Of a DNA stretch of 64,000 nucleotides, positions 1-46,564 are shown in pieces (within the stretch, counting starts at the first letter, position 1; every line of letters starts with the position of its first letter). The notes beneath the pieces are model-generated. The model made no database searches. It was not told the DNA's origin and was given only the letters and a program-made list of their open reading frames with translations. This stretch comes from Bolinopsis microptera (lineage: Eukaryota > Ctenophora > Tentaculata > Lobata > Bolinopsidae): contig NC_087077.1 in the NCBI RefSeq assembly GCF_026151205.1, positions 13,118,983 through 13,182,982 of the forward strand, read 5' to 3'. The translations under genes were made by a program, and so were the position numbers.

Positions 1-933
1 TAGTAGTGGTCGTGGCAGATCAACTGGATAAGGTAGTCAGAGGTTGTGGCGCATAAACCTGATAAATGGTAGTTTCAAGTGGAGTGGACGCATAACCTGA
101 TAAAATGTTAGTTCAGTGGTATGTCGCATAACCTGATAAAATGTTAGTTCAGTGGTAGTGCCGTCGTACCTGATAAATGTTAGTCTGTGGTAGTTGGCGC
201 ATAACCTGATAAATGTTTGTTCTAGTGGTAAGTGGCGGCATAAACTGGAATGTTAGTTCAGTGGTAGTTGGCGCGTAACCTGATACTTGTTAGTTCAGTG
301 GTAGTTGGCGCGTAACCATGATAAAATGTTTAGATTCAGTGGTGTGGCGCATACCTGACTAAATGTTTGTTCTGTGGTAGTGGGCATAACCTGATAAATG
401 TTAGTTCTGTTTGGTAGTGGTGCGTAACCTGATAAATGGTTAGTTCAGTTGGTGTGGCGCATAACCTGATAATAGGTTAGTTAAGTGGTAGGGCGCGTAA
501 TGATTAATGGTAGTTCAGTGGTATTGGCCGCGTAAACTGATAAATGTTAGTTCGTGGTAGTGCGATAACCTGATAATGTTAGTCTGTGGTAGTGGCGCTA
601 AACCTGATAAATGTTAGTTCAGAGTGGTAGAGGCGCATAACATGATAAATGTTAGTTCAGTGGTAGTGGCTGTGGCGCGTAATTGCATAAATGGTAGTTC
701 ATGTAGGTAGTGGCGCATAACCTGATATATGTTAGTTTCAGTGGTAGTGGGCATAACCTGATAAATGTTAGTCAGTGGTAGTGGCCGTTTGTACCTGATA
801 AATGGGTTAGTTCAGTGGTAGTGGCGTGTATGATAATGGTAGTTCCAGTGGTAGTGGGGCGCGTCGTAACTGATAAATGTTAGTTCAGTAGGTAGTGGCG
901 CATACCTGATAAATGTTAGTTCAGTTGCGTAGG
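1..933 (+). repeat. 36-bp minisatellite block 1 of the LINE array
   Basis: About 26 noisy copies of a 36-bp unit whose core reads TTAGTTCAGTGGTAGTGG followed by CGCATAACCTGATAAAT. The block starts at the window edge with the same TAG-rich leader that follows the RT stop in later units, so it is complete or nearly so. The period is a multiple of three, and one plus frame is free of stops in the consensus, encoding repeats of NLINVSSVVVAH. A variant unit with six extra bases (GGCTGTGGCGCG) sits near 670. Confidence 0.93.
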
Positions 934-2909
934 TAGGCTCTACTTCTCGCATTTTACTACCTGGAAAAGGAGAAAAAGAAAAGATGTAAAAATCTCAGGG
1001 ACTCCAAGTGTGAGATTGCCAGGCTGAAGCGAGGAATGTAGCTATAAAATACTCACTCAGAATGTACAGAAGGGAGACAACCGAATGGTGTTCACGAGGG
1101 CAAACAGAGCTAGGCGATGCTTAATCAAGACAGCAATGTGCACTCCTGCTGGAGGGGCATGGTCCGGGAACTGGAGGGAAGCAATGTTGGAGGGCTGACA
1201 TGCTTAAAAGAGTGGACCATTGATCAACAAGATCAAGGTAAAGCTCCATCATATTCTGCAAAATCAAGGTACTACTCACAACGGAAAGGGTTCAGAAATG
1301 GAAGACTATTTTGCATACTCTTCTGGCTCAAAACGACGGTAGAGAACGCGTGAAGAGGATATTGATCCAGTCCACGCACTCTGAATATCGGAAACAGAAC
1401 GTTTACGTTGGCATTGAGTACAGGAAAGCGTCAAAGTCGGCATTAAAGGAAGGGGAAAGCAATGGGTGACGACAAATAGCCCCGAAGTTCTTAAAACGAT
1501 GCGACCTTGATCAAATTGTCTTAGGACTTCTGTACAATGCTCTATTGAATTGTGAGAAAACCTGACCATTGGTCAACTTGCCTACATCTACCACTTCAAA
1601 GAAGGGCGACTTTAGCGGAACCAATGACCTATCGGGAATTAGCTTGTCATCAACTAGTTGCCAAGTCTCTAAAAAAGATGGTTCTAAAACGTTGAAGCCA
1701 GAAATCGAGACAATTCTGCGTAGAACGAATGGTTCAGACCAGGAGGTAACAATCAACAGATATTGGTACTGAGACGTCTTATAGAGAGGTGTCAAGAGTC
1801 GGGAAACTGCCAGCTGTTCCTGACTTCTATAGACTTTAAGAAGGCTTTCGACAGTGTTATACATCGTGGGAAAATGCTAAGATTCTAGAAGCTTTCGGCA
1901 TTCCAGTCAAATCGTTGCAGCTTTATACGGCTCATGTACGAGAGGACAATGGCAAAGTCCTAAACTCAGACGCGAGGTAAGGAAACTGAATTGTTCGAGA
2001 TACTTGCAGGTGTTTACAGGGTGATACTTAGCACCCTTACCTCTTGCAATTGTCATCGATAATGTATGAGGCAAGCATAGGCGATGATGCGGAGCGTCTT
2101 GGACTTCACCCTCGGATTAGTAGAAAACTGGCTGAAGAGTGGGCCATGCTCTTCACCGATGTGGGACTTTTGCGGAGTGAATAGTAACTTATTCTGATGG
2201 ACTTGACAAGGCTAACGAGTTACCTGCTCAGAGTGAATCGGCGGCAGCAAGCGTGACTACACATAACGAGGCAAGACCAAGGTTCTATGACACTGAATTT
2301 GGTGGATCGATTCTAGCGACCTACAAGTCGATCCGGGATGCCATAGAAAATGTAGATGATTTCATCTTCTTAGGCTCCTGGGATTGAGAGCACAGAATAG
2401 GGAGATAAGGGTTAGAATGGATAAAGCGAGGGGTGCCATAATAGACTGGAAGGTATCTGGAAATCCAAACTTCAAGAGCTAAAGATTAGATGTTCATAGC
2501 GGCTTGTGAATCGTATGCTTTCGGATCAGAAAACCGGACCACTGACAAAGGCTCAGAGGAGAAAGAAGTTGGACGGACATACACAAAAGATGTGGTTATG
2601 GTGCTGGGTATCTCATGGAGGACAAGGTCAGCAATATAACTTTGTATGGTAGCTCCCAAGGCTGGCTAAACAAGTTACGAAGAGGAGATTAAAACTGGCG
2701 GGACACTGCATCCGACATCCTGAGCTACTATGCCACGTGATTTAGTCTTAGGGAACCTCGCCACGGTTGAGCTCAGCAGGCCCGACCAAGACCAAAGATA
2801 CTTTGTCTATGTTATGATGAAGTTGGACAAACTCTAAAGAGGGAATTGCGAACCCTGATGGCGGGACAGGGATATATGGAGGGGGTTTTCTGGCGTAGAT
2901 CGGACTTAG
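934..2909 (+). mobile_element. LINE reverse transcriptase, array copy 1 (no endonuclease)
   Basis: RT part of an APE-type non-LTR retrotransposon, identified from the consensus of all copies. The order is a basic start (FYYLKRRKRK), a linker with a helical region, the RT fingers and palm (GFRPGRSTTQQI, FIDFKKAFDSVHRG, GVLQGDTLAPYLF), the catalytic box DFADDIALIS, a thumb region with LLYGSETWTLTK, and a C-terminal AGHCIRHPE motif. It ends at a TAG stop at 2907. The enzyme would copy its RNA into DNA at a nicked target. This copy has many one-base indels, and the FADD box near 2155-2185 is unreadable. No endonuclease lies upstream, only the minisatellite. RTE/CR1-like affinity is likely; the clade needs a tree. 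Confidence 0.9.
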
Positions 2910-3845
2910 CTCCGACATAGTAGTAGTAGTGGTCGTGGCAGATAACTGATAATGTAGTTCAGAAGGTAGTTGGCTGCATACTGATAAATGGTGTACAGTG
3001 GTAGTGACGCATAAATGATAAATGTTAGTCAGTGGTAGTGCGCATAACCTGATAAATGTTAGTTCAGTAGGTAGTGGCGCGTAAACTGATTAAATGTTAG
3101 TACAGTGTAGTGGCGCATACCTGATAAATGTTAGTTCAGTGGTAGGGGATAACCTGAGAAATGTTAGTTCAGTGGTAGTGGCGAGTATCTGATAAATGTT
3201 TGTTCAGTGGTTTAGTGGCGCGTAACCTGATTAAATGTTAGTTCTGTTGTAGTGGAGCATAAACCTGATAAATGTTAGTTCCCGTAGGGTAGTGGCCGCA
3301 TAAACCTGATAATGTTAGTCAGTGGTTAGTGGTAAGCGTAACTGATAAATGTTAGTTCAGGTGGTAGTGGCGCATAACCTGATAATGTTAGTTCAGTGGT
3401 AGTGGCGCGTAACCTGATTAATGTTAGTTCAGTGGTGTGGCGGCGTAACCTGATTAATTGTGAGTTCTCAGTGGTAGTGGCGCATAACCTGATAAATGTT
3501 AGTTCAGTGGGATTCGTGGCGCATAACTGTTAAATGTTAGTTCAGTGGTAGTGGCGCATAACTGATAAATGTTAGTTCAGTGGTAGTGGCTGTGGCGCGT
3601 AACCTGATAAATGGTAGATCAGTGTAGTGGCGCAATAACTGATAAATGTTAGTCTGTGGTAGTGGCGCATAACCTGAAAATGTTAGTTCAAGTGGTTGTG
3701 GCGTGTAACCTGATACAATGGTAGTTCAGTGGTAGTGGACGTGTTGTAACCTGAATATTGGTGTCAGTGGTAGTGGCGCGTAACTGATAAATGTTAGTTC
3801 AGTGTAGTGGGCGCAACCCTGATAAATGTATAGTTTCAGTGGTAG
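2910..3845 (+). repeat. 36-bp minisatellite block 2
   Basis: Begins with a short TAG run directly after the RT stop of copy 1, then about 26 units to the start of RT copy 2. The six-base-longer variant unit is near 3590, at the same offset as in block 1. Confidence 0.93.
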
Positions 3846-5426
3846 TAGGACAACTTCTCGAACGTTTTTACTACTGAAAATGGAGAAAAGAAAGAGGTAA
3901 ATCTCAGCGACTCCCAAGTGTTGAGATTGCCAGGCTGAAGCTGAGGGAATGTAGCATAAAATACCACTCAGGATGCTACAGAAGACAACGAAATAGCCGT
4001 CATGAGGGCAAACAGAAAGCTAGGGATGCTTTTCAAGCAGCCAAAAGAGCACCTGCTGGAGGGGCAGGTCCGGGACTGGAGGAAGCAAGTTGGCAGGGCA
4101 GACAATGTAAAAGGCTGGACCATGATCACAAGATACAGGTAAAGCTCCATCATATACTGGAAAATCCAGGGAAATCTACAAGGAAAGGGTTCAGAAATGG
4201 AAGGACTATTTTGCTACTCTTCTCGGCTCACCACCGACGGTAGGAACCGGAAGAGGATATTGATCCAGTCCACCACCTCATGAATATCGGAACAGAACGT
4301 TTTCGTTTTGGTAATGAGTCAAGAAAAGCAAAGTCCAGCATAAAGGAAGGGGAAAGCATGGGGGTGTCGACAACATAGCCCCCGAAGTCTTATACGATGC
4401 GACTTGATCCAAATTGTCTTAGACTTTCTGCTGTAAACAATGCTCTATAGAAAGGTGAGAAAACCAGACCAATGGTCAACTGCCAACATCCATACCAATT
4501 CAAAGAGGGTCGACTTAGCGAACCAATGAACTTCGGGGAATAAGCTTGTCATCCCTCTAGTTGCCAAGTCTCTAAACAAGGGCGTTCTAACCGGTTTGAA
4601 GCCAGAAATCGAGACAATTCTGGTAGAAACCAGAATCGATTCAGGTCAGGAAGGTCAAAAACTCAACAGATATTGTACTGAGACAGTCTTATGGAGGGTG
4701 TCATGAGTCGGATAACTCTGCAGTGTTCTGACATTTATAGACTTTAAGACGGCTTTTTCGACAGTGTACTCGGTGGGAAAATGGCTAAAGATTCTAGAAG
4801 CGTACGGCATTCCAGGTCAAAATCGTGCTAGCTTATTCGGCTCTGTAGAGTAGCAATGGCCAAAGTCCTAACTCCTGACGGAGAAATGTATTGTTCGAGA
4901 TACTTGCAGGTGTGTACAGGGTGATACCTTTGCACCTTACCTCTTTGCAATTAGTCTCGACTACTGTATGAGGCAAGCCATAGGCGATGATGCGTGAGCA
5001 GACTTGGACTCACCTCGAAGTAGAAAAGCTGAAGAGTGGGGCCAAAGATTCATCAACTCGATGGGACTTTGCAGATGATTTAGGCACTTTATCTGAGGAC
5101 TTGGTCAAGGTAACGAGTTCCTGCTCTGAGTAGAATCGCGCAGAAGCGCTCCCCCCCCCCCCTAAGGGACTACTCATAATCGAAGGCTAAGACAAGGTCA
5201 TGACACTGAATATGGAGGATCGATCTAGCGACCTAAAAAGTCGATCAAGGGGAAGCCATAAGAAAATGTTGATTGATTTATCTACTTAGGCTCCCTGGAA
5301 TTGAGAGCACAGATAGGGAGCTTGTAAGGATGTTAGTAAAGGAAATGGCGTGGGGTTTGCCCTCCTACTTAGACTGAAGGATATCTGGAAATCAAACTCT
5401 CAAAAGAGCCTTAAGATTAGCTTGTT

Positions 5427-5457
<31 letters not shown>

Positions 5458-5882
5458 GTTAGCGGCTTGTGAATCTGTCTGCTTACGGTTCAGAAACCTG
5501 GGGGACACCTGACAAAAGGCTTCTAGAGAATAAGTTTGGACGGGATTACACAAGATGTTGGTTTGGGTGATGGGTATCTCATGGAAGGACTAGGTCAGCA
5601 ATATATACCTTATGGTATGGTTGCCTCCAAAGGTGTCAGAAAAAGTACGAAAGCAGGAGATTATAAAAAATGGCGGACACTGCATCGACATCTGAAGCTT
5701 ACTTGCCAGTGATTTTAGTTTTTATGGGAACCTACGCACGGTAGAGCACGAGCAAGGCGACAAAGACAAGCTATTGTCTATGTTAACTGAGGAAGTTGGG
5801 AAACAAACTCCAAAGAGGAACTGCGAACCCGATGCGGGACGGGATATATGGAGGGGGTTTTCTGGCGTGATCGGGATTTGCT
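3846..5882 (+). mobile_element. LINE reverse transcriptase, array copy 2
   Basis: Same extent as copy 1, broken in every frame. Two homopolymers absent from other copies interrupt it: C12 at 5151-5162 after the FADD region, and T29 at 5429-5457 inside the thumb region between bases that are adjacent elsewhere (GTTCAT and AGCGGC). The terminal TAG is not readable (ATTTGC where others have CTTAGC). The long homopolymers look more like assembly artefacts than insertions, since there is no target-site duplication. Confidence 0.9.
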
Positions 5883-6829
5883 CCTACATAGTTGTAGTAG
5901 TGTTATGGCAGATATCCTGATAAATGGTCGTTCTGAGGTAGTGGCGCATATCCTGATAAATGGTAGTTCAGTGGTAGTAGTGGACGCATAACCTGATTAA
6001 TTGTTAGTTCAGTGGTTAGTGTCGCTTACCTGGAAAAATGGTTAGTTCAGTGGTTGTGGCGCGTAACCTGATTAAATGTTAGTTCAGTTGTAGTGGCGCA
6101 TAACCGGATAAATGTTAGATCAGTGGTAGTGGTGCATAAACTGATAAAAGTTAGTTTAGTGGTTGTGGCTGCGTAAACCTGATAAATGTTAGTTCAGTGG
6201 TAGTGGCGCGTAACCTGATAAATGTTAGTCTGTCGGTAGTGGCGCATAACATGATTAATTGTTATGATCAGTGGTCGTTAGTGGGCTTAACTTGATATGT
6301 TAGTTCAGTGGTAGTGTGTGGTAACCTGATAAATGTAAGATCGTGGTAGTGCGCATACCTGATTAAATGTTAGTAGTTCAGTGGTTAGTGGCGCGTACCT
6401 GATTAATGTTAGTTCAGTGGTAGTGGCGGTAACCTGATAAATGTTAGTTCTGTTGGTAGTGGCGATAACCTGATAAATGTTAGTTCATTGGTAGTGGTCG
6501 CATAACATGATAAATGTTAGTTCGATGGTAGTGGCGCAATAACGATAAATGTTAGTTCGTGGTAGTGGCTGTGGCCGCGAAACCTGAAAATTGGTAGTTC
6601 GTGGTAGTGCGCATAAACCTGATAAAGGTTAGTTCAGTGGTAGTGGCGCATAACCCTGATAAAATGTTAGTTGCAAGTGGTAGTGGCGTGTATCTGATAA
6701 ATGGTTAGTTCAGTGGTAGTGGCGTGTAACTGATTAAATGGTTAGTTCAGTGGTTAGTGGCGCGTAACCTGATAAATGTTAGTTCAGTGGTAGTGGCGCA
6801 TAACCTGATAAATGTTAGTTCAGTGGTAG
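5883..6829 (+). repeat. 36-bp minisatellite block 3
   Basis: About 26 units. The variant with the GGCTGTGG insertion is near 6567. The last two units (6757-6829) are clean and read NLINVSSVVV in frame into the next RT copy. Confidence 0.93.
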
Positions 6830-8828
6830 TAGGACAATCTTCTTCGAACTTTTACTACCTGAAAAAGGAGAAAAAAGAAAAGATGATTAAAATATCAGCG
6901 ACTCGCAAGTGTGAGATTGCCAGGTGTAATGTGAGGGAATTGTAGCATAAAATACCACTCAGATGCTACTGAAGACATAACCGAATAGCTGTTCAGAGTG
7001 GCAACAGAAGTAGGCGATGCTTATCAAGCAGCCAAAGAGCACCTGCTGGAGGGGCAGGTCGGGAACTGCGAGGGAAGCAAGTTGGCAGGGCAGACATGCT
7101 TAAATGTGGACCATGATCAACAAATCACAGGTAAAGCTCCATCATAATACTGGCAAATCAAAGGGAACTCACCACGGAAAGGGTCAGAAATGGAAGGGAT
7201 ATTTTGCTACTCTTCTCGGCTCACCACCGACGGTAGAGTACGCGGAAGAGGTTATGATCCAGTCCACCACCTCTGATTATCGGAACAGAACCGTTTACGT
7301 TGGATGAGTACAGGAAAGCAAGATGTCCAGCATAAGAGGGAAAGCATGGGGTGTCGACAAACATAGCCCCAGAAGTCTTAAACGATGCGACTTGGATCAA
7401 ATTGTCCTTAGACTTCTTGTTAACAATGTTTATTGAAAGGTGAGAACCAGATCAATGGTCAAATGCCAACTTCATACCAATTCCCAAAGAAGGGCGACTT
7501 AGCGAACCAGTGAAACTATCGGCGGTATAAGCTTGTCATCCCTAGTTGCCCAGTTCTAAACATGTGGTTCTAAACCGGTTGAAGCCAGAATTCGAGGACA
7601 ATTCTGGTAGTAGAAACCTCAGAATGGTTTCAGACCAGGAGGTAACAACTCAACAGATATAGGTACTGCGAGGTCTTATAGAGGATGTCACGAGTCGGAA
7701 ACTGCCAGCTGTTTGAATTTTATAGTCTTTAAGAAGGCTTTCGACAGTGTACAATCGTGGGGAAATGCTAAAGATTTCTAGAAGCTTACGGCATTCCAGT
7801 CAAAATTCGTGCAGGCTTATACGGCTCATGTACGAGATAGACAATGGCCATAGTCTAAACTCAGCGGAAGAAACTGAATTGTTCGAGTATACTGCAGGTG
7901 TTGGTGTTACAGGGGTGATTACCTTAGGCACCTTACCATCTTTGCAATAGTCATTCGACTTTTGTATGAGGAAAGCCATAGGCGATGATGCGGAGGACTT
8001 GGACTCTCCCTCGAAAGTAGAAAAAGAAAGAAGAGTGGGGCCCAAGATCATCACCGATTGTGGGACTTTTGCAGATGATATAGACTTATATCTGTAGGAC
8101 ATGGACAGCTAACGAGTTCCTGCTCAGAGTATAGAATCGCGGCAGCAAGGTGGGACTACACATAACGAAGGCAAGTCCAAGGTCATGACAACTGAATATG
8201 GAGGATCTGATCTAGCGACTACCAAAGTCGATCGGGGAAGCCATTCAGAAATGTAGATGATTTCATCCTACACTAGGCTCTGGTTTTGAGAGCACAGATA
8301 GGGAGTAGCTAGGGGTAGAAAGGGAAATGGGCGTGGGGTGCCCTACCATAGACTGAAGGTATTCTGGGAGATCCAAACTCTCAAAGAGCTACTAAGTTTA
8401 GATAGTTCATAGCGGCTTTGTGTTCAGTACTGCTCTACGGATCAGAACTCCTGGACACTGACAAAGGTCAAGAAGAAAAGTTTGGACGGACTTACACAAA
8501 GTTGTTGCGCGTATGGTGCTGGGTATCTCATGAAAGATGAATTGGTCAGCAATTTAACTTTGGATGGTAGCCTCCAGGTGTCAAACAAGTTTCCGAAGCA
8601 GTGAGATTAAAAATGGCGGGACACTTGCATCCGACTCCTGAGCTATTGCAGTGATTTATGTCTTATGGGACCCTACGCACGGTAGAGGCACAGCTAGGCC
8701 GACAGACTAAGCGGGGGAGGGTACTTGTCATGTGACTGTAGGAAGTTGGGACAAACTCTAAAGAGAATGCGAACCTTGATGCGGGACAGGGTTATATGGA
8801 GGGGGTTTTCTGCGTAGATCGGGATTAG
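6830..8828 (+). mobile_element. LINE reverse transcriptase, array copy 3
   Basis: The junction is well preserved: an uninterrupted frame at 6757-6945 begins in the minisatellite (NLINVSSVVVAH) and continues through FYYLKKEKKEK into the linker. The FADD codons (TTTGCAGATGAT) are at about 8068-8079 but out of frame with upstream palm sequence because of single-base indels. The TAG stop is at 8826-8828. Confidence 0.9.
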
Positions 8829-9765
8829 CTCCGACTTAGTAGTAGTTGTGGTAGTGGCCGATAACCTGATAAATGGTAGTTCAGAGTTGAGTGGTCGGCA
8901 TAACTGATTAATGGAGTTCAGTGGTAGTGAGCATAACCTGTTAAATGTTAGTTCAGTGGGTAGTGTCGCATACCTGATAAATGTTAGTTCAGTGTAGTGG
9001 CGCGTACCTGATAAATGTTAGTTCAGTGGTAGTGGCGCATAACCTGATTAATGTTTAGTCTCAGTTGGTAGTGGCGCATAACCTGATTAATGTTAGTTCT
9101 CAGTGGTTGTGGCGGTAACCTGATAATGTTAGTTCAGGGGTAGTGGCGCGTAACCTGATAAATGTTAGTTCAGTGGTAGTGGGCGCATAACCTGATAAAT
9201 GTTTGTTCAGTGGTTGTGGGCCGCATAACATGATAATTGTTAGTTCAGTGGTAGTGGTGCTTAACACTGATAATGTTTAGTTCTGTGGTAGTGGCGACTA
9301 ACCTGATTAATGTTAGTTCAGTTGGAAGTGGACGCGTACCTGATTAATGTTAGTTCATTGTAGTGGGCGCGTAACTGATAAATGTTAGTTCCTGTGTAGT
9401 GGCATAACCTGATAAATGTTAGTTCGTGGTAGTGGCGATAACTGATAATTGTTAGTTCAGTGGTCAGTGGCGCTAACTGATGAATGGTAGTTCAGTGGTA
9501 GTGGCTGTGGCGCAGTAACCTGATAAATGGTAGTTCAGTGGTAGTGGCGATAACCTGATAAATGTTAGTTCAGTGGTTTATATTGGCGCAATAACTGAAT
9601 AAATGATATAGTTCAAGTGGTAGTGGCGTTTGTAACTGATAAATGGTAGTCAGTGGTAGTGGGTGTACCTGATAAATGGTAGTTCAGTGGTAGTGGCGGT
9701 AACCTGATAAATGTTAGTCAGATGGTAGTGGCGCATAACTGCTAAATGTTAGGTTCAGTGGTAGT
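8829..9765 (+). repeat. 36-bp minisatellite block 4
   Basis: About 26 units between RT copies 3 and 4. The longer variant unit is near 9500, again about 670 bases into the block. Confidence 0.93.
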
Positions 9766-11731
9766 TAGGATCAACTTCTCGACTTTTACTACCTGAAAAG
9801 GAGAAAAGAAAAGATGTTAAAATATCTCAGCGAATCCAAGTGTTGAGATTGCCAGGCTGAAGCTCGAGGGATTGTAGCTTAAAATACCCCTCAGATGCTA
9901 CAGAAGACAACCGAATAGACTGTTCAAGAGGGCAAACAGAAGTTGGCGATGATTATCAAGCAGCCCAAAGAGCACCTGCTGGAAGGGTCAGGTCGGGACT
10001 GGAGGCGAGCATGTTGGCAGGGCAGACATGTAAAGCTGGACTTGCTCAACAGATCACAGGGAAAGCTTCATCATATACGGGCAAAATCAAGGGAAAACTC
10101 ACCAACGGAAGGGTTCAGAAATGGAAGGCTATTTTGTAATCTTCGGCTCCCATCGACGGTAGTGAACGCGGAAGAGGATATTGATCAGTACACACCCCAG
10201 CTCTGAATTATCGAAACGACCGTTTACGTTGGATGAGTACAGGGAAAGCAAAGTCCGCATAAAGGAGGGAAAGCATGGCGGTGACGACAACATAGCCCCA
10301 GAGTCTTAAACGATGCGATCTTGAGTCAAATTGTTCGGACTTCTGTAACAATGCTCTAGTTGAAGAAATGTGAGAAACCTGCCAGGGTGTCAACTGCCTA
10401 ACATCTATCCAATTCAAAGAAGGCGACCTTTAGCGAACCAAATGAACTATCGTGGGAATAGCTTGTCATCCTAGTTGCCTCAAGTCTCTAAACAAGATGG
10501 TTCTAACCGGTTTTGAAGCCAAGAAAGCGAGACGATTCTGCGTAGATCGAAAACAGAATGGATTCAGACGGAAGGTCAACAACTCAACAGATATAGGTAC
10601 TGGAGTCTTATAGAGGGTGTCAAGAGTCGGAGAAACTGCAGCTAGATTGACATGTTTATAGACTGTTAAGAAAGGCTTGCGACAGTGTAATCGTGGAAAT
10701 TGCTAAAGATTTCTAGAAGCTTACGGAATCCAGTCAATATCGTGCAGCTTATACGGCTCTTGTAATAGGAAGACAATGGCCAAAGTCTAACTCCGGACGG
10801 AGAAACTGAATTGTTCGAGATACTTGCAGGTGTGTTACAGGGTGATACTTAGCACCTTACCTTTTGAATAGTCATCGACTACTGTATGAGGAAGCCATAG
10901 GCGATGAGCGGGAGCGACTTGGACTCTCGAACGTAGAAATAGCAGATGAGTGGGGGCCCATGATCATCACGATGTGGACTTTGCAGATGATATAGCACTT
11001 ATATCTGAGGACATGGACAAGGCTAACGGGAGTCCTGCTCAGAGTAGGAATCGGCGGCTGCAAGCGTGGGACTACACATAAACGAGGCAAGACCAAGGTC
11101 ATGACACATGATATGGAGGATCGATCTAGCGTCCAACAAAGTCGATCCGGGGAAGCCATAGAAAATGTAGATGATTCATTCTACTTAGGCTCATGATTGG
11201 AGAGCACGATAGGGAGTTAAGGGGTTTAGAAATGCGGAAAAAGCGTGGGGGTGCCCTACATAGACTGAAGGTTATCTGGAGAATCCAAACTCTCAAAGAG
11301 CTAAAAGATTAGATTGTTCATTAAGCGGCTTAGTGAATCAGTACTGCTCTACGGTTCAGAACTGGACACTGACCAAAGCTCAAGAGAAAAGTTTGGACGG
11401 GGACATACACATAGATGTTCTTGCGTATGTTGGGGTATCTCAGGAAGGACTAGGTCAGATATAACTTTGTTTGGTAGCCTCCAAGGCTGTCAAACAAGTT
11501 ACGAAGCAGGAGATTAAAAATGGGGGGAACATGCATCCGCATCTGAGCTACTTGACCAGTGATTAGTTCTTATGGGAAACCTACGCACGTAGAGACAAGC
11601 AAAGGCGAACAAGACAGAGCTACTTGTCTATGTTACTGAAGAAGTTGGGGGACATACTCTAAAGAGAACTGCGAAACCCCGATGCGGGTCAGGGATTTAT
11701 GGAGGGGGGTTTTCTGGTAGATCGGACTTAG
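9766..11731 (+). mobile_element. LINE reverse transcriptase, array copy 4
   Basis: Full-length array-type RT copy without long homopolymer inserts. The FADD codons are intact at 10,980-10,991 and the TAG stop is at 11,729-11,731. Indels keep any frame below about 90 codons. Confidence 0.9.
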
Positions 11732-12672
11732 CTCCGACTCGTAGTAGTAGTGGTAGTGGCTGATAACTGATAAATGGTGTCAGAGGTAGTGGCGCATAAC
11801 CTGATAAAATGGTTAGTTCAGGTAGAGAAGCATAAACCTGATAGATGTTAGTTCAGTGGTAGTGTCGCATAACTGATAAAATGTTAGTTAGTGGTAGTGG
11901 CGCGTTAACCTGTATTTGTTAGTTTCGTGGAGTGGCGCAAAACCTGATAAATGTTTGTCAGTGTAGTGGCGAATAACCTGATAAATTGGGTTTAGTTCAG
12001 TGTAGTGGCTGCGTAACTTGATAAATGTTAGTTCAGTTGGTAGTGGCGCGTACCTGATAAATGTAGTTCAGTGGTGTGGCGCATAACTGATAAAGGTTGT
12101 TCAGTGGTAGTGGCGCAGAACCTGAGAAATGTTAGTTCAGTGGGAGTGGTGCGTAACCTAGATAAATGTTAGTTCAGTGGTAGTGCGCTTAACACTGTAA
12201 ATGTTAGTTCAGTGGTAGTGGCGCGTAACATGATTAATTTAGTTCATTGGTAGTGGCGCGTCGTTACCTGATTACATGTTGAGTCAGTGGTAGTGGCGCA
12301 TAACCTGTTAAATGTTAGTTCAGTGGTAGTGGCGCATCGCAAAACCTGATAAATGTTTGCTTTTCAGTGGTTGTGGCGCAAAAACTGATTAATGTTAGTC
12401 CAGTGCTAGTGGCTGTGGCGTAACCTGATATATGGTAGTTCAGTGGTAGTGGCGATAACCTGATAAATGTTAGTTCAGTGGTAGTGGCGCATAACCTGAT
12501 AAAATGTTAGTCAGTGGTTAGTGGAGTGTACATAGATATATGGTTTTTGTTCAGTGGTAGTGGCCGTTTTGTTTATCAGATAAATGGTGTTCAGTGGTAG
12601 TGGCGCGTAACCTGATAACATGTTAGTTCTCAGTGGTAGTGCGCAAAACTGATAATTGTTGTTCAGTGGTAG
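11732..12672 (+). repeat. 36-bp minisatellite block 5
   Basis: About 26 units. The longer variant unit is near 12,410. Confidence 0.93.
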
Positions 12673-14688
12673 TAGGACAACTTCTCGATTCGGTTTACTA
12701 CCTGAAAAGGAGGAAAAAGAAAAGATTGTAAAATCTCAGCGACCTACAAGTGTTGAGATTGCCAGGACTGAAGCTGAGGGAAGTAGCATTAACATACCAC
12801 TCAGATGCTACAGAAGACAGCCGAATAGCTGTTCAGAGGGCAATAAGAAGCTAGGCCGATGCTTATCAAGCGCCAAAGAGCACCAGCTGAGGGGCAGGTC
12901 CGGGACTGGAGGAAGCAAGTGCAGGAGACATGCTAAAAGCTGAGACAGTTCATCAAGATCACAGGTAAAGCTCCATCAATATACTGGCAAAATCAAGGGA
13001 AACTCACCAACGGAAAGGTTCAGAAATGGGAAGGACTATTTTGCTACTCCTTCTCGTCCACCACCGACGGTAGAGACGCGGTTAAGAGGATATTGGAATC
13101 CAGTCCACCCACCTCTGAATATCGGAACAGAACGTTTACGTTGGAGAGTACGGAAAGCAAAGACGGGGGGGGGCCTTTTTTGTTAAAAAAAAAAAAAAAA
13201 AGAAGGGTAAGCATGGGGGTGGACGTAACATAGCCCCAGAAGTCTTAAAACGATGCGACCTTGATCAAATTGTCTAGATTTGTAACAATGCTTATTGAAA
13301 AGGTGTGAAACCAGACCATTGGTCCAAACTGCCTACACTTACCATCTAAGAAGGGCGACTTGCGAACCAATGAATATCGGGGATTAGATCTTGTCTTCCC
13401 GCTTGTTGCCAAGTCTCTAAACAATAGATGGTTCTAAACCGGTTGAAGCCAGAAATCGAGACAATTTTGCGTAGAACCAGAATGGATTCAGACCAGGAAG
13501 TGTTCAACAATCGTGTCTATCAAAGTTATTGGTACTGAGGACGTCCTTATAGAGAGGTGTCATGAGTCGGAAACTGCCAGCTGTCTCTGACTTTTATAGA
13601 CTTTAGAAGGCTTTCGACAGTGTACTTGGGGGGAAAATGCTAAAGATTCTAGAAGCTTACGGCATTCCAGTCAAAATCTCGTGCAGCTTTAGGTCATTGT
13701 AGAAGAAGAACAATGGCCAAAGTCCTAACTCCAGAGGAGGAAATGAATGGTTCGAGATACTTGCAGGTGTGTTCAGGGTGATACCTTAGCACGTACCTCT
13801 TCTGCAATAGTCCATCGAACTACTGTATGAGGCATCCATAGGCGTTGATGCGGAGCGACTTGGACTCACCTCGAACGTTGAAAAAGCAGAAGAAGTGGGG
13901 CCCAGATCATCACCGATGTGGCTTTGCAGATGATATGCACTTATATTCTGAGGACATGGACCAAGGCAACGAGTTCCTGATCAGAGTTGAATCGGCGCTA
14001 GCAAGCGTCGGATGACATAAACGAAGGCAAGACCCGGTTCATGGACAGGAATATGGAGGATCGATCTAGCGACCTACAAAGTCGATCGGAAGCCATAGAA
14101 AATGTAGATGGATTTTATCTACTTAGGCTCCTGGATTGAGAGCACAGATAGGGAGATAAGGGTTAGAAAGGAAAAAAGGTGGGGTGCCCTACATAGACTG
14201 AAGGATATCTGGATACAAACTCTCAACAGAGCCTAAAAGTTAGATTGTTTTAGCGGCTTCTTGTGAATCAGTATGCTCTACGGATCAGAAAACTGGTCTT
14301 GAACAAAGGCTCTCAAGAGAAAAGGTGGACGGGTCATACACAAGATGTTGCGTATGGTGCTGGGTATTCAGGAAAGGACAAGGGTCAGCAATTATAACTT
14401 TGTATGGTAGGCCTTCCAAGGCTGTTTCAAACACGTTACGAAGGCAGGAGAGTAAATATGGAGGGACACCTGCATCCGAATCCTGAGTACTTGCCAGTGA
14501 TTTAGTTCTTATGGGGAACTACGCAGGTAGAGCACAGCAAGGCGACCAAGCAAGCTACTTGTCTATGTTACTGAGGTAAGTTGGGGACAAGCACTAAAGT
14601 AGGAACTAGCACGTATCTCCCTCTGTTAGCGATGGACAGGGATATATGGAGGGGGTGTTTCTGGTTACGTGATAGATTCGCGGGTTAG
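12673..14688 (+). mobile_element. LINE reverse transcriptase, array copy 5
   Basis: Array-type RT copy with a composite low-complexity insert at about 13,165-13,201 (a G run, a T run, then A18) in the linker just before the palm. Elsewhere this position reads directly through a GKAWG-type motif. The terminal TAG is at 14,686 in a scrambled context. Confidence 0.88.
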
Positions 14689-15657
14689 CTACAGCCATTA
14701 GGTAGTAGTTGTGTATGTGGCCGATACCTGATAAATGGTAGTCAGAGGAGTGGCGCATAAACCTGATAAATGGTAGTTCAGTGGTAGTGGACGCATAACA
14801 TGATAATATGTTAGTTAAAGTGGTTGTGTCGCATAAACCTGTAATGTTAGTTCAGTGGTGAGTGGCCCGTAACCTGATAAATGTTAGTTCGTGTAGGTGG
14901 CGCATATGAATAAGATGTTAGTTCTGTGGTGGGCGCTCATAACTGATAAATGTTAGTTCAGTGGTAGTGGCGCGTTAAACCTGATAAATGTTAGTTCAGT
15001 GGTAGTGGCGCTGTAATCCTGATAAATGTTAGTTCAGTGGTTGTGGGCATAACCTGATAGAATGTTAGTTCTGGTTGTAGTGGCGCATAAAACCTGATAA
15101 ATTAGTGAGTTCCGTGGTAGTGGTGCGTACGTAACTGATAATGGTAGTTCTCAGTGGTAGTGGCGCCATAACCTGATAAATGTTTGTTCAGTTGGAGTGG
15201 CTGCGTAACCTGATTAATGTTAGTTAGTGGGGTTTAGGGGCGAGTAACTGATATATGTTAGTTCAAGTGGTAGTGGCGCATAAACCTGAGATAAAGTTAG
15301 TTCAGTGTAGTGGCGCCATCGTAACCTGATAAATGTTAGTTCAGTGGTAGTGGCGCATAACCTGAATAAATGTTAGTTCTGTGGTAGTGGCCTGTGGTAG
15401 CGCGTAACTGATGAATGGTAGTTCAGTGGTAGTGGCGATAACCTGATAAATGTGTTAGTTCAGTGGTAGTGGCGCAATAAAACCTGATAAATGTTAGTTC
15501 TGTGGTCGTGGCGTGTAACCTGATAATTGGTAGTTCAGTGGTAGTGGGTGTAACTGGATAAAATGTGTTGTTCAGTGGTATAAAGTGGCGCGTAACCTGA
15601 TTAATGTTAGTTCAGTGGTTTAGTGGCGCATACTGATATAAGTTAGTTCAGTGGTAG
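14689..15657 (+). repeat. 36-bp minisatellite block 6
   Basis: The longest block (about 969 bp), roughly 27 units. The longer variant unit is near 15,390. Confidence 0.92.
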
Positions 15658-17699
15658 TAGGACAACTTCTTCGATTTTATACCTGAAAATGAGAAAAAGA
15701 AAAGATGTAAAATTCAGCGACCAAGTGTTGAGATTGCAGGCTGAAGTGAGGGAATGTAGATAAATACCACTCAGATGCTTAAGATGAACAACCGAAAATG
15801 TGTTAAGAGGGCAAACAGAAGTAGCGATGCTTAACATAGAGCCAAAGAGCCTGCTGGAGGGGAGGTCCGGGACTGAGGAAGCAAGGTGGCAGGGCAGACA
15901 TGCTAAATGCTGGGACCATGATCAACAGATCACAGGTAAAGACTCATCATATACTGGAAAATCAAGGAACTCACCAACGGAAAGGGTTCAGAAATGGAAG
16001 GACTAATTTTGCTACTCTTCTCGGTCACCACGGGACGGTTAGAGAACGCGGAAGAGGATATTGATCCAGGTCCACCCACCTCTGTATATCGGAACAGACC
16101 GTTTATCGTTGGCTTGTGTTTCAGGAAAGACAAAGTCAGCATTAAAGGAAGGGGAAAGAATGGGGTGAGAACAACATCGACCAGAAGTCTTTAAACGATG
16201 CGCCCTGATAAAATTGTCTTAGACTTCTGTTACCAATGCTCTATTGAAAGGTGAGGAACAGACCAATGGTCAAACTGCCAACATCATACCAATTCCAAAG
16301 AAGGGGCGACCTTAGCGAACCATGAACTATGGGGAATAAGCTTGTCTTCCCTAGTTGCCAAGTCTCTAAACAAGATGGTTCTAAACGGTTGAAGCCAGAA
16401 ATCGAGACAATTCTGCGTAGAAAACCAGATATGGATTCAGACCAGGAAGGTCAACAACTCAACAGGATATTGGTACTGAGACGTCTTAAGAAGGGTGTCA
16501 GGTCTGGAAACTGCACAGCTGGTACTGACATTTATAGACTTTAAGAAGCTTTCGACATTGTACATCGTGGGATATGCTAAAGATTCTAGAAGGCTTACGG
16601 CATTCCAGTCAAAATCGTGCTGCTTATACGGTCTTGTACGAGAAAGACTATGGCCAAAGTCACTAACTCAGACGGAGAAATGAATTGTTCGTAGATACTT
16701 GCAGGTGTGTTACAGGGTGATACATTAGCACTTACCTCTTGCAATAGTCATCGAACTACTGTATGAGGCAAGCCTAGGCGATGATGCGGAGCGACGATTG
16801 GACTCACCCTCGAAACGTAGAAAAAGCAGATGTGTGGGGCCAGATCATCACCGATGTGGACTTTGCAGATGATATAGCACTTTTATTGAGGACATGGAAC
16901 AAGGCTAACAGTTCCTGCCTCAGCGTAGAATCGGCGGAGCAAGCTCTGGGGGATCTAACACAGAAACGATAGCAAGACAAGGTCATGACACTGAATTTTG
17001 GATTGGCAGGATCGATCTAGGCGAGACTTTCACATACAAAGGGGGGGGGGGGGGGGGAGGGGGGGGGAGTGGCCTGTCAAATCGATCTGGCGGGATAAGC
17101 CATGATAGAAGGTAGGATGATTTCATTACTTGAGGTCTTAGATTGAAAGAGCACAGCTAGGGAGATAAAGGGTCTTAGAGTAAGGGTATAAGCGTGGGGT
17201 GCCCTACATAGATGAAGGATATCTGGGAAATCCGCAAAACTCTCGCAAAGTGCCTAAAGATTAGAATGTTCATTAGCGGCGTGTGAAATGCTTGTAGCTC
17301 TACGATCAAGAAAAACCTGGGCACTGTCAAGTCAAGAGAAAAGTTTGGACGGGAATACACAAAGATGTTGCGTATGGTGGTGGGTATCTCATGGAAGGAC
17401 AAGGTCCGAGCAATATAAGCTTGTATGTTAGCCTCCAAGGCTGTCAAACAGTTACGGAGCAGGAGATTTAAATGTCGGAGGGACACTGCATCCTGAGACA
17501 TCGCTGCCAGTCACTTGCCAGGGGTTTTCAGTTCTTATGGAACTACGCACGTGTAGTGGCAAGCAAGGCGACCAAGACTAAGCTACTTGTCTTTGTTACT
17601 GAAGGAAGGGTGGGACAAAACTCTATAAACGAGGAAATGCGAACCCAGATGCGGGACAGGGATATATGGTGGGGGTTTTCTGGCGTAGATCGGACTTAG
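15658..17699 (+). mobile_element. LINE reverse transcriptase, array copy 6
   Basis: The best-preserved catalytic region in the array: an open stretch at 16,781-16,972 includes TDVDFADDIALL, with the FADD codons at 16,862-16,873. A G-rich tract at 17,041-17,069 interrupts the region after the KTKVMTL motif. The TAG stop is at 17,697-17,699. Confidence 0.9.
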
Positions 17700-18646
17700 A
17701 TCGACTTAGTTAGTAGTAGTGGTTAGTGGCAGATACCTGATAATTGGTAGTTAAGAGGTTGTGGCGAATAACTGATAAATGGTAGTTCAGTGGTAGTGAT
17801 CGCCTATACCTGATATAATGTTAGTTAGTGGTTGTGTGCATGTAACTGATAAATGTTAGTTCAGTGAGTGGCGCGTAAACTGATAAATGTTAGTTCAGTG
17901 GTTGTGGCGCATTAACCTGATATAAATGTTAGTTCAGTGGTAGTGGCGCTAACTGATAAATGTTAGTTCAGTGGTAGTGGCTGCGTAAACCTGATAAATG
18001 ATAGTTCGTGGTCAGTGGCGGCGTAACCTGATAAATGTTATGTTCAGTGGTAGTGGCGCTTAACCTGATAAATGTTAGTTCAGTCGGTAGGTGGGATAAC
18101 GCCTGTTAAATGTTAAGTCAGTGGCTAGGGGTTGCGTAACCTGATAAAATGTTAGTTCAGTGGTAGTGGCGCTACCTGCTGAATGTTAGTTCAGTGGTCC
18201 AGTGGTAGTGGCGCGTAACTGATTAATGTTAGTTGTTGTGGTAGTGGCGCGTAAGACCTGAATAAATGTTAGTTCTGGTGGTAGGGCGCTAACTGATTAA
18301 TGTTAGTTCAGTGGTAGTGGCGCATAACATGATAAATGTTAGTTCGTGGTAGTGGCGCTTAACTGATAAATGTTAGTTCAGTGGTAGTGGCTGTGGGCGT
18401 AACTGATAAATGGTGAGTTCGTGGTAGTGGCGCATAACCTGTATAAATGTTAGTTCAGTGGTAGTGGCGATAACCTGATAATGTGTAGTTTCAGCTGTTG
18501 GTAAGGGGCGTGTACCTATATATTGGTAGGTCAGTGGTAGTGGGTGTAACCTGATAAAATGGTAGTTCATAGGGGTAGTGGCGCGTAACCTGATAAATGT
18601 TAGTTCAGTGTAGTGGCGCTAACCTGATACATGTTAGTTCAGTGGT
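17700..18646 (+). repeat. 36-bp minisatellite block 7
   Basis: About 26 units. The longer variant unit is near 18,388. The end reads in frame into RT copy 7 (VSSVVVGQLL from about 18,630). Confidence 0.93.
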
Positions 18647-20632
18647 AGTTGGACAACTTCTCGGACTTTTACTACCTGAAAAGGAGAAAAGAAAAGATGT
18701 AAAATCTCAGCGACTCCAAGTGTTGAGATTGCCAGCTGAAGTGCGGGAATGTAGCATAAATACCACTCAGGATGCTACAGAAGAACAACCGTTATAGCTG
18801 TTCAAAGAGGGGCAAACAGAAGCTAGGCGATGCTTATCAAGCAGCCAAAGTGCACTTGCTGGAGGGCAGGTCGGGAACTGGAGAAGGCCAAGGAAGCAAT
18901 GGTTGGCAGGCAAGACATGCTAAAAGCTGGACCTTGATCAACAAGATCACAGTAGAAGCCCATATTATTATGGCAAAATCAAGGGAAACTCACCAACGGA
19001 AGGTTTCAGAAATGGATGGACTATTTTGCTACCTCTTCTCGGCTCACCACGACGTTAGAGAACGCGTGAGAGGATATTGATCAGTACACCCACTCTGAAT
19101 GTCGGAACAGAACCGTTTACGTTGGATGAGTACAGGAAAAAAAATGCAAAGTCCAGCAAAAGGAAGGGAAAGCATGGGGTGAGCAAATAGCCACAGAAGT
19201 CTTTAAAACGATGCGACCTTGATCAAATTGTCTTAGACTTTGTAACTATGCTAGATTGAAAGGTGAGAAACCGACCAATGGTCAACTGACCAACATCATA
19301 CCAATTACATAGAAGGGCGACCTCGTAGCGAACCAAATGAAACTTTCGGTGAATAAGCTTGTTTCCCTAGTTAGCCAAGTCTCTAAACAAGATGGTTCTA
19401 AACCGTTTGAAGACAGGAATCGAAAAATTCTGCGAGAAACAGAATGGATTCAGACTGGATGGTCAACAACTCACAGTATTGGCTCTGAGACGTCTTATAG
19501 AGGGTGTCAAGAGTCGGAATCTGCCCTAGCGCGGTTCTGACATTTATAGACTTTAAGAGGCTTTCGACAGTGTACATCGTGGGAAATGCTAAAGATTCTA
19601 GAAGCTTACGGCATTCAGTCAAATCGTGCGCTTATCGGCTCATGTACGAGAGATGGGACAAGGCCATAGTCCTAACGCCAGGACGGAGAAACTGAATTGT
19701 TCGACGATACTTGCAGGTGGTGTTACCTGGAGATACCTTAGCATCCTTACCTCTTTGCAATTGTCTCGACTACTGTATGAGGCATAAGCCATAGGCGATG
19801 ATGGGAGCGACTTGGACTCACCCTCGAAAGTAGAAAAAGAGAAGAGTGGGGCCCTAGATCATCACCGATGTGGTCTTTGAAGATGATATAGCTACTTATT
19901 TGAAGGTCATGGAAAGGCTATACGAGTTCCAGCTCAGAGTAGAATCGGCGGCAGCAAGGTGGGACTACACATAAAACGAAGCCTAGACAAGGTCATGGAC
20001 ACTGAATATTGGTGATCGATTAGCGACCTACAAAGTCGTTCCGGGGAAGCCATAGAAAATGTTAGATGATTTCAGCTACTTAGGCTCCTGGATTGAGAGC
20101 ACAGATAGGGAGATAAGGGTTAGAAAGGGAAAAGCGTGGGTGCCTACATATAGACTGAACGGAATCTGGTAATCCCCTAACTCCAAAGGCCTAAAGATTA
20201 GTTTGTTCATAGCGGTTGTGAATAGTACTGCTTCACGATCAGAAAACTTGGACACTGACAAAGGCTCAAGAGAAAAGTTTGGAGGGCCATTACACAAAGA
20301 TGTTGGTATGGTGCTGGGTATCTCTGGGAAGGACAGGTCAGCAATATAACTTTGGTATGTATGGTTTGCCTCCAAGGCTGTCAAACAAGTTAGAAGCAGG
20401 AGATAATATGGTCGGGGGACACTGCATCCGAATCTCTGAGCATATCTTTGCAGTGATTTTAGTCTTATGGGAACTACGCACTCGGGTAGAAGCGCAGCAA
20501 GGGCCGACTGACCAAAGCTACTTGTCTAGTGTTACTGAAGGAAGTTGGGACAAGCTTAAGAGGAACTGCGAACCTCTGATGCGGGACAGGGATATATGGG
20601 AGTGGGGTTTTCTGGCGTAGATCGGACTCAGC
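18647..20632 (+). mobile_element. LINE reverse transcriptase, array copy 7
   Basis: Array-type RT copy with ordinary indel noise and no long homopolymer insert. The usual terminal stop reads CAG instead of TAG near 20,630. A mid-palm stretch containing LTFIDFK is open at 19,504-19,695. Confidence 0.9.
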
Positions 20633-21577
20633 TCTCTCGACATAGTAGTTGTAGGTGTAGTGGCAGATAACCTGATAAATGGATTTCAGAGTTAGTGGCG
20701 CATAACCTGTTAATGGTGTGCAGTGTAGTGACGCATAACCTGATAATGGTTAGTTCAAGTAGGTAGTGTCGCGCTATAACTGATAAATGTTAGTTCAGTG
20801 GTAGTGGGCGTAACCTGATAATGTTAGTTCAGTTGGTAGTGGGCATAACTCTGTTAAATTGTTAGTTCCAGTGGTAGTGGCGCATAATGATAATGTTAGT
20901 TCAGTGGTAGTGGCGCGTACCTGAATAATGTTAGTTCAGTGGTAGTGGCCGGTAACATGATAAATGTTAGTTCAGTGGGTAGTGGCGCATAACCTGATAA
21001 ATGTTTGTTCAGTGTGTAGTGGCGCATAACCTGATAAATGATAGTTCAGTGGTAGTGGTGCGTAACTGTAATTGTGAGTTCATGTGGATAGTGGCGCGCA
21101 ATAACGGCTGATGAATAGGTTTAGTTCAAGTGAGATAGAGTGCGCGTAAACCTGATTAAGTGTGTTAGTTCTGCAGTGGTAGTGGGCGTAACCTGATAAA
21201 TGTTAGTTCAGTTGGTGTGGCGCATAACTGATAAATGTTAGTTCAGTGGTGTGGAGCTACCTAATAAATGTTAGTTCAGTGGTAGTGGAGCATACCTGAT
21301 AAAATGTTAGTTCAGTGGTGTGGCCTGTGGCGCGTACCTGATAAATGGTAGTTCAGTGGTAGTGGCGCATTCCTGATAAATGATAGTTCAGTGGTAGTGC
21401 GCATACACTGATAAATGTTAAGTTCATTGGTTAGTGGCGTGTAACTGATATATCGGTAGTTCAGTGGTAGTGGCGTGTAACTGATAAAAAGGTAGTTCAG
21501 TGGTAGTGGCGGTAACCTGTTAATGTTAGGTAGTGGTAGTGGCGCCATAAACCTGATAAATGTTAGTTCAGTGGTAG
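20633..21577 (+). repeat. 36-bp minisatellite block 8
   Basis: About 26 units, the last block of the array. The longer variant unit is near 21,323. Confidence 0.93.
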
Positions 21578-22938
21578 TAGGGACAATTCTCGACTTTTAC
21601 TACTGAAAAGGAGGAGAAAAAGAAAGATGTTAAATTCAGCGACTCAAGTGTGAAGATTGCCAGGCTGAAGCTGAGGGAATGTAGCATAAATACCACTCAG
21701 ATGTACAGAAGACAACGAATAGTGTTCAAGAGGGCAAACAGAAGCTAGGCGTTGATTATCATAGCAGCAGAAGAGCACATGCTGGAGGGGCAGGTTCCGG
21801 GAACTGGAGGAAGCAAGTTGGCAGGGCAGAATGCTAAAAGCTGACCATGGGATCAACAAGATCACAGCGTAAAGATCTCATCATATACTGCAAAATCAAG
21901 GGAAATCACCAAACGGGAAAGGGTTTCAGAAATGGAAGGACAATTTTGTATCTTCTCGGGCTCACCACCTGACGGGAGAGAAACGCGGAAGAGGATGTTG
22001 TTCCAGTCCACCACTCTGGAATATCGGAACAGTAACCGTTTACGTTGGATGAAGTTACAGGGAAAAGCAAAGTCCAGCTATAAAAGGAAGGGGAAAGGCA
22101 ATGGGGTTGTCGACGACATAGCCCCAGTAGTCTAAAACGAGTGCGACCTTGATTCAAAAAAATATTTGTCTTTAGACTTTCTGTAACAATGCTCTATGTA
22201 AGGTGAGAAACAGACCAATGGTCATGCCAAACATCATACCAATTCCATGAAGGGCGACCTTAGCGAACCAATGAACTATCGGGGAATAAGCTTGTCATCC
22301 TAGTTGCCAAGTCTCTAAACAAGATGGTTCTAAACGGTTGACTGCCGGCAATCGAGACAATTCTGCGTAGAATCCAGAATGGATTCTGACCAAGGAAGGT
22401 CAAAACAAACCTCAACAGATATTGTACTGTGAGTCTTATTAGAGGGTGTCATGAGTCGGAAAACTGCCAGCAGTTTGACAATTATAGACTTTAGAAGCTG
22501 TCGCAGTGACATCGGGGAAATGGCTACAAGATTCTAGAAGCTTACGGCATTCAGTCAAAATCGTGCAGCTTTTACGGCTCTATGTACGAGAAGTACAATG
22601 GCCAAAAGTCCTAATCCAGGACGGAGAAACTGAATTGTTTCGATGATACTTGCTGGTGTTTTACTGGGTGATACCTTAGCCTCTTACTCTTGACAATAGT
22701 CATCGATTACTTGTATGAGGCAAGACTATAGGCGATGATGCGGAAGCGACTTGGACTCACCCTCGAACGTAGAAAAGCAGAAGAGTGGGGCTGATCATCA
22801 CGATGTGGACCTTTGCAGATGATATAGCACTTATTCTGTGGACAGGGACAAAGGTCTAACGACGTTCTGTAAGTGTAGAATCGGCTCGGCAGCAGCGTGG
22901 GGACTACACATAACGAACGGCAAGAACAAAGGTCATGA
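21578..22938 (+). mobile_element. LINE reverse transcriptase, array copy 8, 3'-truncated
   Basis: Starts like the other copies but homology stops at about 22,938, just after the codons for KTKVM that follow the FADD box. The thumb, the C-terminal motif and the TAG tail are missing. Next comes a G-rich stretch and then AT-rich DNA without similarity to the array. This is the right edge of the array. GGAGGAT, normally about 10 bases further on in the RT, appears right at the junction, so the exact breakpoint is uncertain by about 12 bases. Confidence 0.88.
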
Positions 22939-40200: not shown

Positions 40201-40204
40201 TAAA

Positions 40205-40662: not shown

Positions 40663-40682
40663 TAATTGTCGACCACCCCATT

Positions 40683-46560: not shown

Positions 46561-46564
46561 CTGG

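Follow-up and report, generated by a model that had tools for sequence, protein, structure and literature searches.

The array at the locus

The window, i.e. the whole 64,000-bp stretch of Bolinopsis microptera DNA analysed here, opens with a tandem array (positions 1-22938, contig C6) that contains eight reverse transcriptase (RT) stretches, all on the plus strand, seven of them full and one cut. All eight copies start at positions 1-8 of a 1,975-bp long interspersed element (LINE) sequence; seven extend to the 3' end of the element (LINE position 1965-1975 of 1975), and the eighth ends at window position 22938, which corresponds to LINE position 1340. Each RT copy is preceded by ~0.9 kb (about 0.94) of a 36-bp minisatellite tandem repeat. 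The original prediction of eight same-strand RT copies with one 5' truncation, each behind ~0.94 kb of this minisatellite, thus describes correctly what is present in the letters. The array extends ~49.7 kb further left of the window, and across three stretches of the block the RT start-to-start spacing is 2,885-3,253 bp, with a unit period of ~2.95 kb. The 3,253-bp spacing sits left of the window and is caused by a poly-A insertion of ~300 bp; hence, its reading as true length variation, an argument against a rolling-circle origin, was dropped. No reading frames of at least 150 aa occur within the array. The features of the window are as follows.

1-22938, plus strand: part of a noisy long-read block (whole block C6:~13069280-13141920); letters recur on contig C5 in the stretches compared
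37-925, plus: minisatellite spacer 1 (36-bp tandem repeat; left part may start before 37)
942-2921, plus: LINE body 1, 5'-truncated, 88.9% to the clean copy L008
2928-3846, plus: minisatellite spacer 2, tandem repeat
3846-5892, plus: LINE body 2 (LINE match), broken by a 29-T run at 5429-5457
5912-6830, plus: minisatellite spacer 3, tandem repeat
6830-8840, plus: LINE body 3, LINE match
8848-9765, plus: minisatellite spacer 4, tandem repeat
9766-11738, plus: LINE body 4, LINE match
11749-12673, plus: minisatellite spacer 5, tandem repeat
12673-14690, plus: LINE body 5, LINE match
14726-15658, plus: minisatellite spacer 6, tandem repeat
15658-17710, plus: LINE body 6, LINE match
17718-18649, plus: minisatellite spacer 7, tandem repeat
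18651-20646, plus: LINE body 7, LINE match
20657-21578, plus: minisatellite spacer 8, tandem repeat
21581-22938, plus: LINE body 8 (LINE match, C5 comparison), breaks off at LINE position 1340 of 1975, beyond which the C5 copies continue
22939-64000, no strand: ordinary sequence; 22958-26233, 45977-52216 and 60977-61348 have counterparts on C6 left of the block, so that the same locus flanks both sides
47379-50176, plus: dispersed LINE copy (LINE match) with internal deletion, the putative right-side anchor of a pasted read

Noise and recurrence of the letters

When 23 units (LINE matches of >1,700 bp in array orientation) were compared with a clean dispersed LINE copy, the differences proved to be mostly indels and mostly private to one unit, including 742 of 943 substitution alleles and 1,220 of 1,460 insertions. 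The transition to transversion count is 205:1,014 (ratio 0.20), where the 205 transitions include 21 cells of an A>G change that is the single fixed difference in 1,975 bp across the 23 units. Poly-A and poly-T bursts are found within the array, and minisatellite rows with periods of 35-38 bp carry 11-20% indels. Substitutions common to four or five of the 23 units are all A>T (9/9), and 15 of the 17 deletions common to at least seven units are of C. These shared A>T substitutions and C deletions are context-dependent errors (the test of neighbouring letters covered the first 16 of the 23 units). Judged from the letters, the unit differences look like raw long-read errors, and they lie inside clean sequence, as the LINE copies in the flanks are clean. 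Biological decay of the units is contradicted by this noise pattern.

The letters of the array, errors included, were found twice more on contig C5 (blocks C5a and C5b) in every stretch compared, with differing ends. A segment of 1,001 bp is letter-identical at the three places (40 of 273 candidates scored), and 400 bp located 45 kb left of the window are identical in all three blocks. In a separate candidate set, 40 of 123 were scored. Identity spans 16,301 bp between C6 and C5a, 16,101 bp between C6 and C5b, and 2,639 bp between the window and C5a; these stretches, on which the letter identity rests, are parts of the blocks. Hence, identical letters with identical errors stand at unrelated places, as in a gap-fill artefact. 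Each of the three blocks stops at another point of the shared sequence. By their edges, they amount to ~357 kb and ~121 apparent units, which apparently go back to one source sequence of ~62 units in ~182 kb of noisy letters. Taken as placed, they would give a misleading count of three LINE-derived satellite loci with decayed RT copies.

Flanks and cut points

Each of the three blocks is bordered left and right by near-copies of one locus, and all six flanks carry a LINE copy in array orientation. At the four testable edges, the cut point can be predicted when the read is aligned to a LINE copy 14-27 kb distant, with a misfit of only 5-34 bp against the 2.95-kb period, as expected for wrong anchors (predicted/found: 3644893/3644859, 3644880/3644859, 3762917/3762940 and 3786335/3786330; figures from the anchor matches listed, two of the four predictions resting on one and the same read unit). 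The C5b edges, accessible by extrapolation only, are 49 and ~138 bp off, the latter being a poor fit at the left edge over four units. Neither LINE nor minisatellite was found in the first 0.9-7.8 kb from the edges in the four flanks examined. Such an anchor-distance test, which uses a dispersed repeat many kb away to predict the cut point, can expose pasted sequence without recourse to reads. Three of six C6 pieces compared with the window have no match in it, namely L023, L021 and the first 860 bp of L038. By distance, L021 and the start of L038 are expected beyond the end of the window and L023 inside it. The absence of L023 from the window, the lack of both repeats near the edges and the poor left-edge fit at C5b speak against the pasted-read explanation.

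Origin of the placement

Taken together, we favour a reading in two layers, to which we assign a probability of about 0.85: misplaced uncorrected long-read sequence at this locus and a real macrosatellite somewhere in the genome. The array is very probably foreign to the C6 locus, and its placement is not to be trusted: identical letters occur at three places, they show the noise described above, duplicated flanks surround the block, and the cut points fit LINE copies in those flanks. Window positions 1-22938 would thus represent uncorrected long-read sequence set between two near-copies of one locus. The source read may hold dozens of LINE units, while each neighbouring contig would hold one dispersed LINE copy. 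A gap closer could have used these dispersed copies as anchors, cut the read by distance and inserted the middle, with the identical event at the two C5 junctions; the anchoring at 14-27 kb from the edges is what we infer from the cut points. A single read of 182 kb would be very long, and the source may instead be an uncorrected contig.

The B. microptera assembly is described as closed with TGS-GapCloser (PMC10232365), and the TGS-GapCloser paper cautions that repeats may lead to the selection of wrong reads (PMC7476103). The procedure described there resembles the one proposed here in that the part of a read that spans two contigs is cut out and inserted. It differs in that 2-kb aligned flanks are used and candidates are corrected, whereas the letters here are uncorrected and the putative anchors lie 14-27 kb from the edges (PMC7476103). 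The original prediction had named assembler-made tandem order as what would overturn it: this appears to apply to the placement on C6 but not to the order inside the source sequence. Its location of the array at this locus is not supported, as two other scaffold positions carry these letters and the block has near-copies of one locus on either side.

The letters do stand here in the assembly, and their identity at three places could mean fresh duplication, i.e. a real macrosatellite at the C6 locus, decayed by mutation, in a region recently duplicated twice onto C5. The mostly private indels, the transition to transversion ratio of 0.20 and the poly-A/poly-T bursts make this highly improbable, as do the different end points of the three blocks in the shared sequence and the mutual similarity of the two flanks of each block. 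Another conceivable source is a rolling-circle product instead of a chromosomal array: one ~2.95-kb circle would have been copied into a concatemer, in the library or in the cell, and pasted likewise. Such a product would account for the undetectable between-unit variation, with one LINE sequence in 23 units and no whole-repeat change in 20 spacers, and for the failure to find a polished junction in the assembly. Yet, a fresh chromosomal array would give an identical picture. Moreover, missed SMRTbell adapters would lead to alternating strands, while large matches are unidirectional on each stretch examined (orientation taken from comparisons without strand filter) and inverted 14-mers are rare (23 in 26 kb). 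Also against this source, the methods in the portion of PMC10232365 consulted make no mention of amplification (zero occurrences of the word). We thus consider a rolling-circle source unlikely, albeit less so than a decayed array at C6.

Origin and amplification of the unit

The element itself qualifies, by its predicted domains, as an APE-type non-LTR retrotransposon (LINE): the clean copy L008 combines Exo_endo_phos (E 1e-8) and RVT_1 (E 3.2e-33) in one frame, and the best solved relatives are LINE-1 ORF2 proteins. In the 23 LINE bodies examined, the truncation point is always the same, and a single sequence underlies them all. All 20 spacers examined consist of one block of ~25 repeats with position-specific variants, and in none of them has a whole 36-bp repeat been added or removed. 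In register, 171 of 171 spacer pairs align better than when shifted by five repeats, the single shift used (19 of the 20 spacers, one of 1,246 bp being left out). Since the spacers have one variant pattern and the LINE bodies one truncation point, the unit was amplified as a whole. This bears out the earlier proposal of unit-level amplification instead of repeated retrotransposition, which is contradicted by the same two observations.

One route offered by the original prediction is that each new LINE inserted into the tail of the copy before it, in the manner of telomere- or rDNA-targeted elements. This route is contradicted by the common spacer pattern and is the most remote of the readings considered. 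The LINE ends in (TAG)n, and TAG overlaps are present at both array junctions, which would suit tail insertion; but an identical 5' truncation would be needed each time, and a spacer of ~25 repeats with fixed position-specific variants would not be reproduced. As tail and target overlap in TAG, the array junction is neutral with regard to target-site duplications.

For the preferred two-layer reading, a single insertion of an APE-type LINE, of which only the last ~1,975 bp remain, may have occurred in a 36-bp minisatellite. The resulting composite of ~25 minisatellite repeats plus LINE (~2.95 kb) would then have undergone head-to-tail amplification as a unit, too recently for differences between units to be detectable under the noise. 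A homogeneous macrosatellite is probably real somewhere in this animal, most likely as neutral or selfish satellite DNA, as nothing indicates a function. Homogenised head-to-tail units with a transposable element (TE) part are found inside the noisy source only. More speculatively, and on balance doubtful, at least 60 LINE-minisatellite units with no detectable variation could reflect one very recent burst in a ctenophore, for instance if a single excised circle was copied by a rolling-circle mechanism, and new macrosatellites may repeatedly form there through insertion of a LINE and subsequent amplification of the unit, because a second, clean LINE-bearing tandem lies near the start of contig C8.

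Clean copies and related systems

A polished minisatellite-LINE junction was sought with one 35-bp pattern (at most one mismatch); all three matches lie in the noisy C5b block, which speaks against the macrosatellite. An exact 68-bp minisatellite pattern matches contig C9 only (three overlapping matches), where 8.6 copies of the minisatellite stand together and the 10 kb examined contain no LINE. A 44-bp pattern with up to three mismatches gave 137 matches; among the matches listed, all are in the three blocks or on C9. The tandem at C8:31471-41999, which counts in favour of the two-layer reading, consists of three or more units, 3.24-3.42 kb long and 97.6-99.9% identical, arranged head to tail. 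Like the array, it carries one truncated copy of the same LINE in each unit; unlike the array, it has a 479-bp LINE piece and another spacer, is largely clean, and is located ~31 kb from the contig start.

TE-derived satellites are a kind already known. Titles and abstract openings on LINE/minisatellite macrosatellites, the species and gap-filling errors yielded no account of such a case, which is no proof of absence. If confirmed, the macrosatellite would be a new example of how a LINE, by inserting into a minisatellite, can convert it into a satellite with a unit of several kilobases. Described LINE-derived satellites include the common cetacean satellite (L1 3' end), HinfI of Gallus (CR1) and PROsat of Phodopus (L1 ORF2) (PMC9659126). 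These resemble the present array in having a LINE piece within the tandem unit. In comparison with the satellites described there, the unit of the array, as known here from noisy sequence, adds ~25 repeats of an unrelated 36-bp minisatellite.

Unit structure and amplification

Positions 1-22938 of the window (+ strand) contain eight LINE reverse-transcriptase stretches, seven of them complete and the eighth cut at 22938, and each is preceded by ~0.9 kb of a 36-bp minisatellite, which bears out the original prediction of a head-to-tail array. Large matches to one unit have a single orientation in each stretch examined. The LINE, in its clean dispersed copy L008, has an endonuclease and a reverse transcriptase. 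Leftward, the array extends beyond the window in a ~72.6-kb block of the same contig, C6 (~13069280-13141920, only sampled in the parts between the fetched stretches).

The 20 spacers examined comprise 25 minisatellite repeats plus a partial one with position-specific variants, and no whole-repeat gain or loss was found among them; the largest insertion measures 18 bp (a poly-A run excepted) and the largest deletion 3 bp. All pairs formed by 19 of these spacers (171/171) align better in register than at a five-repeat shift. At both unit junctions there is a TAG overlap, TAG also being the tail of the LINE. This consistent composite unit, with its 25-repeat pattern and register, argues for a single LINE insertion followed by the unit-level amplification that had been proposed; repeated LINE insertion is contradicted by the spacer pattern.

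Uncorrected sequence at three places

The letters of the array are uncorrected long-read sequence, and the variation among units looks like the noise of single-molecule sequencing over many copies of a single sequence. Five fetched clean LINE copies are 99.2-99.97% identical to one another over pieces of 0.6-3.1 kb. Compared with L008, a clean dispersed copy, 23 array units display 1.7-3.2% substitutions, 2.7-4.7% deletions and 4.0-8.3% insertions, many of them private to a single unit (742 of 943 substitution alleles, 1,220 of 1,460 insertions and 421 of 838 deleted positions), with 205 transitions to 1,014 transversions. The sole fixed difference from L008 is position 78, in 21 of the 23 units. 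Variant sharing between adjacent units does not exceed chance (among 130 pairs in the first 16 units, 14 were neighbours against an expectation of 16.25), and a poly-A run of ~300 bp and a run of 29 T break into otherwise normal units. Mutation as the source of the unit differences is contradicted by this pattern of private indels, transversions and homopolymer runs.

Among 40 scored matches of a 1,001-bp array piece, three occur in the assembly at 100% identity and the remaining 37 at 88%; five of the latter, when fetched, were clean dispersed LINE copies. The array is held by three blocks, one on C6 and two (C5a, C5b) on contig C5:

Blocks holding the array, with unit numbers by length
C6: ~13069280-13141920, 72.6 kb, ~25 units
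C5a: 20037812-~20140150, 102 kb, ~35 units
C5b: 3630070-~3811860, 182 kb, ~62 units

Exact agreement, in comparisons covering these stretches rather than whole blocks, extends over 16,301 bp (C6 and C5a), 16,101 bp (C6 and C5b), 2,639 bp (window and C5a) and 2,120 bp (C5a and C5b); 400 bp located 45 kb left of the window are identical in all three. Many scattered matches among the blocks likewise keep a single constant offset. The end points of the three blocks within the shared sequence differ.

Block edges and duplicated flanks

All six flanks carry a copy of the array LINE in array orientation. If one read had been placed on these copies and then cut by distance, one of its LINE units would have to coincide with the flank LINE. 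As C5b retains a part of the read that is trimmed from C6 and C5a, four edges are testable:

3' marker on C5, predicted and found (interpolated) positions
C6 right edge: 3644893, 3644859
C5a left edge: 3644880, 3644859
C6 left edge: 3762917, 3762940
C5a right edge: 3786335, 3786330

A fit within 34 bp at a 2.95-kb period has a chance of ~2.3% per edge, the four edges being not fully independent as C6 right and C5a left use the same read unit. The C5b edges, by extrapolation only, are off by ~49 bp over one unit (right) and ~138 bp over four (left). The published description of a Bolinopsis microptera assembly names wtdbg, HiRise scaffolding, TGS-GapCloser, haplotig purging and pilon polishing, reports 97.23% in 13 scaffolds, and mentions CLR and HiFi libraries jointly for three species (PMC10232365); the assembler used suggests a CLR library for this one. 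TGS-GapCloser is described as using 2 kb of aligned sequence adjoining the gap (PMC7476103), and the distance of the flank LINE copies from the block edges (14-27 kb) counts against pasting by this program as described. No LINE or minisatellite was found closer to the edges in the flank pieces examined. The distance fit points to the flank LINE copies as paste anchors, and we infer the exact program behaviour.

Three window segments match the left flank of the C6 block at 88.8-96.4% identity:

window 22958-26233: C6:13024347-13027500
window 45977-52216: C6:13047000-13053000
window 60977-61348: C6:13062000-13062395

Judged from these matches, one locus is apparently present on both sides of the block, its LINE copy and internal deletion included. 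Three of the six C6 pieces tested have no match in the window. By distance, 13068000-13068399 and 13068400-13069259 are expected past its end and 13056000-13056399 near 55.2 kb, where minisatellites stand, so that the two locus copies differ there. The two C5a flanks share 99.3% identity across 1,812 bp; for C5b, flank identity is 94.6-98.2% across ~1.5 kb. Each of the three blocks is thus bordered by a pair of near-copies of one locus, which are most probably haplotypes. Window 22958-64000 and C6:13024347-~13069k are probably one locus, the second copy being a haplotype remaining in the assembly. Further repeats in this part of the window are:

40205-40662: GTCAGG hexamer x76, within a 174-aa open frame (40176-40700)
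47379-50176: a dispersed LINE copy that shares its internal deletion with the one in L009, another genome stretch
53922-54658: 61-bp tandem array, 12.1 copies, 98% matches
55649-56533: 57-bp tandem array, 15.4 copies, 94% matches

The first 0.7 kb of the LINE at 47379-50176 aligns to the clean LINE at only 82.6% identity and needs 41 gap openings, and the right-hand locus copy therefore looks partly unpolished.

Origin of the array and related repeats

The placement of the array in the window is not borne out, since the same letters stand at two places on C5 and the blocks lie between near-copies. We consider it probable (roughly 80%) that a real macrosatellite of these units exists somewhere in the genome. 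The main rival, a rolling-circle concatemer as source, would agree with the lack of variation found between units, and we regard it as unlikely. On contig C8, ~31 kb from the contig start, 31471-41999 holds a head-to-tail tandem of at least three units. These measure 3.24-3.42 kb, share 97.6-99.9% identity, and each includes 479 bp of the same LINE family; the sequence is largely clean, and tandem growth of LINE-bearing segments is thus also seen in such sequence. The 36-bp repeat itself forms a clean block of 8.6 copies without LINE on contig C9 (C9:2474664-2474971, L064:4665-4972). At L008:3356-3672, the TAG tail of a LINE copy adjoins a 43-bp minisatellite of 7.4 copies, so that a LINE stands beside a minisatellite in a second case, and L008:5436-6001 (contig C10) is an array of the octamer GTAACCAG (70.8 copies) running to the end of the stretch. 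Satellites derived from LINEs are a known kind, as described in a review (PMC9659126).
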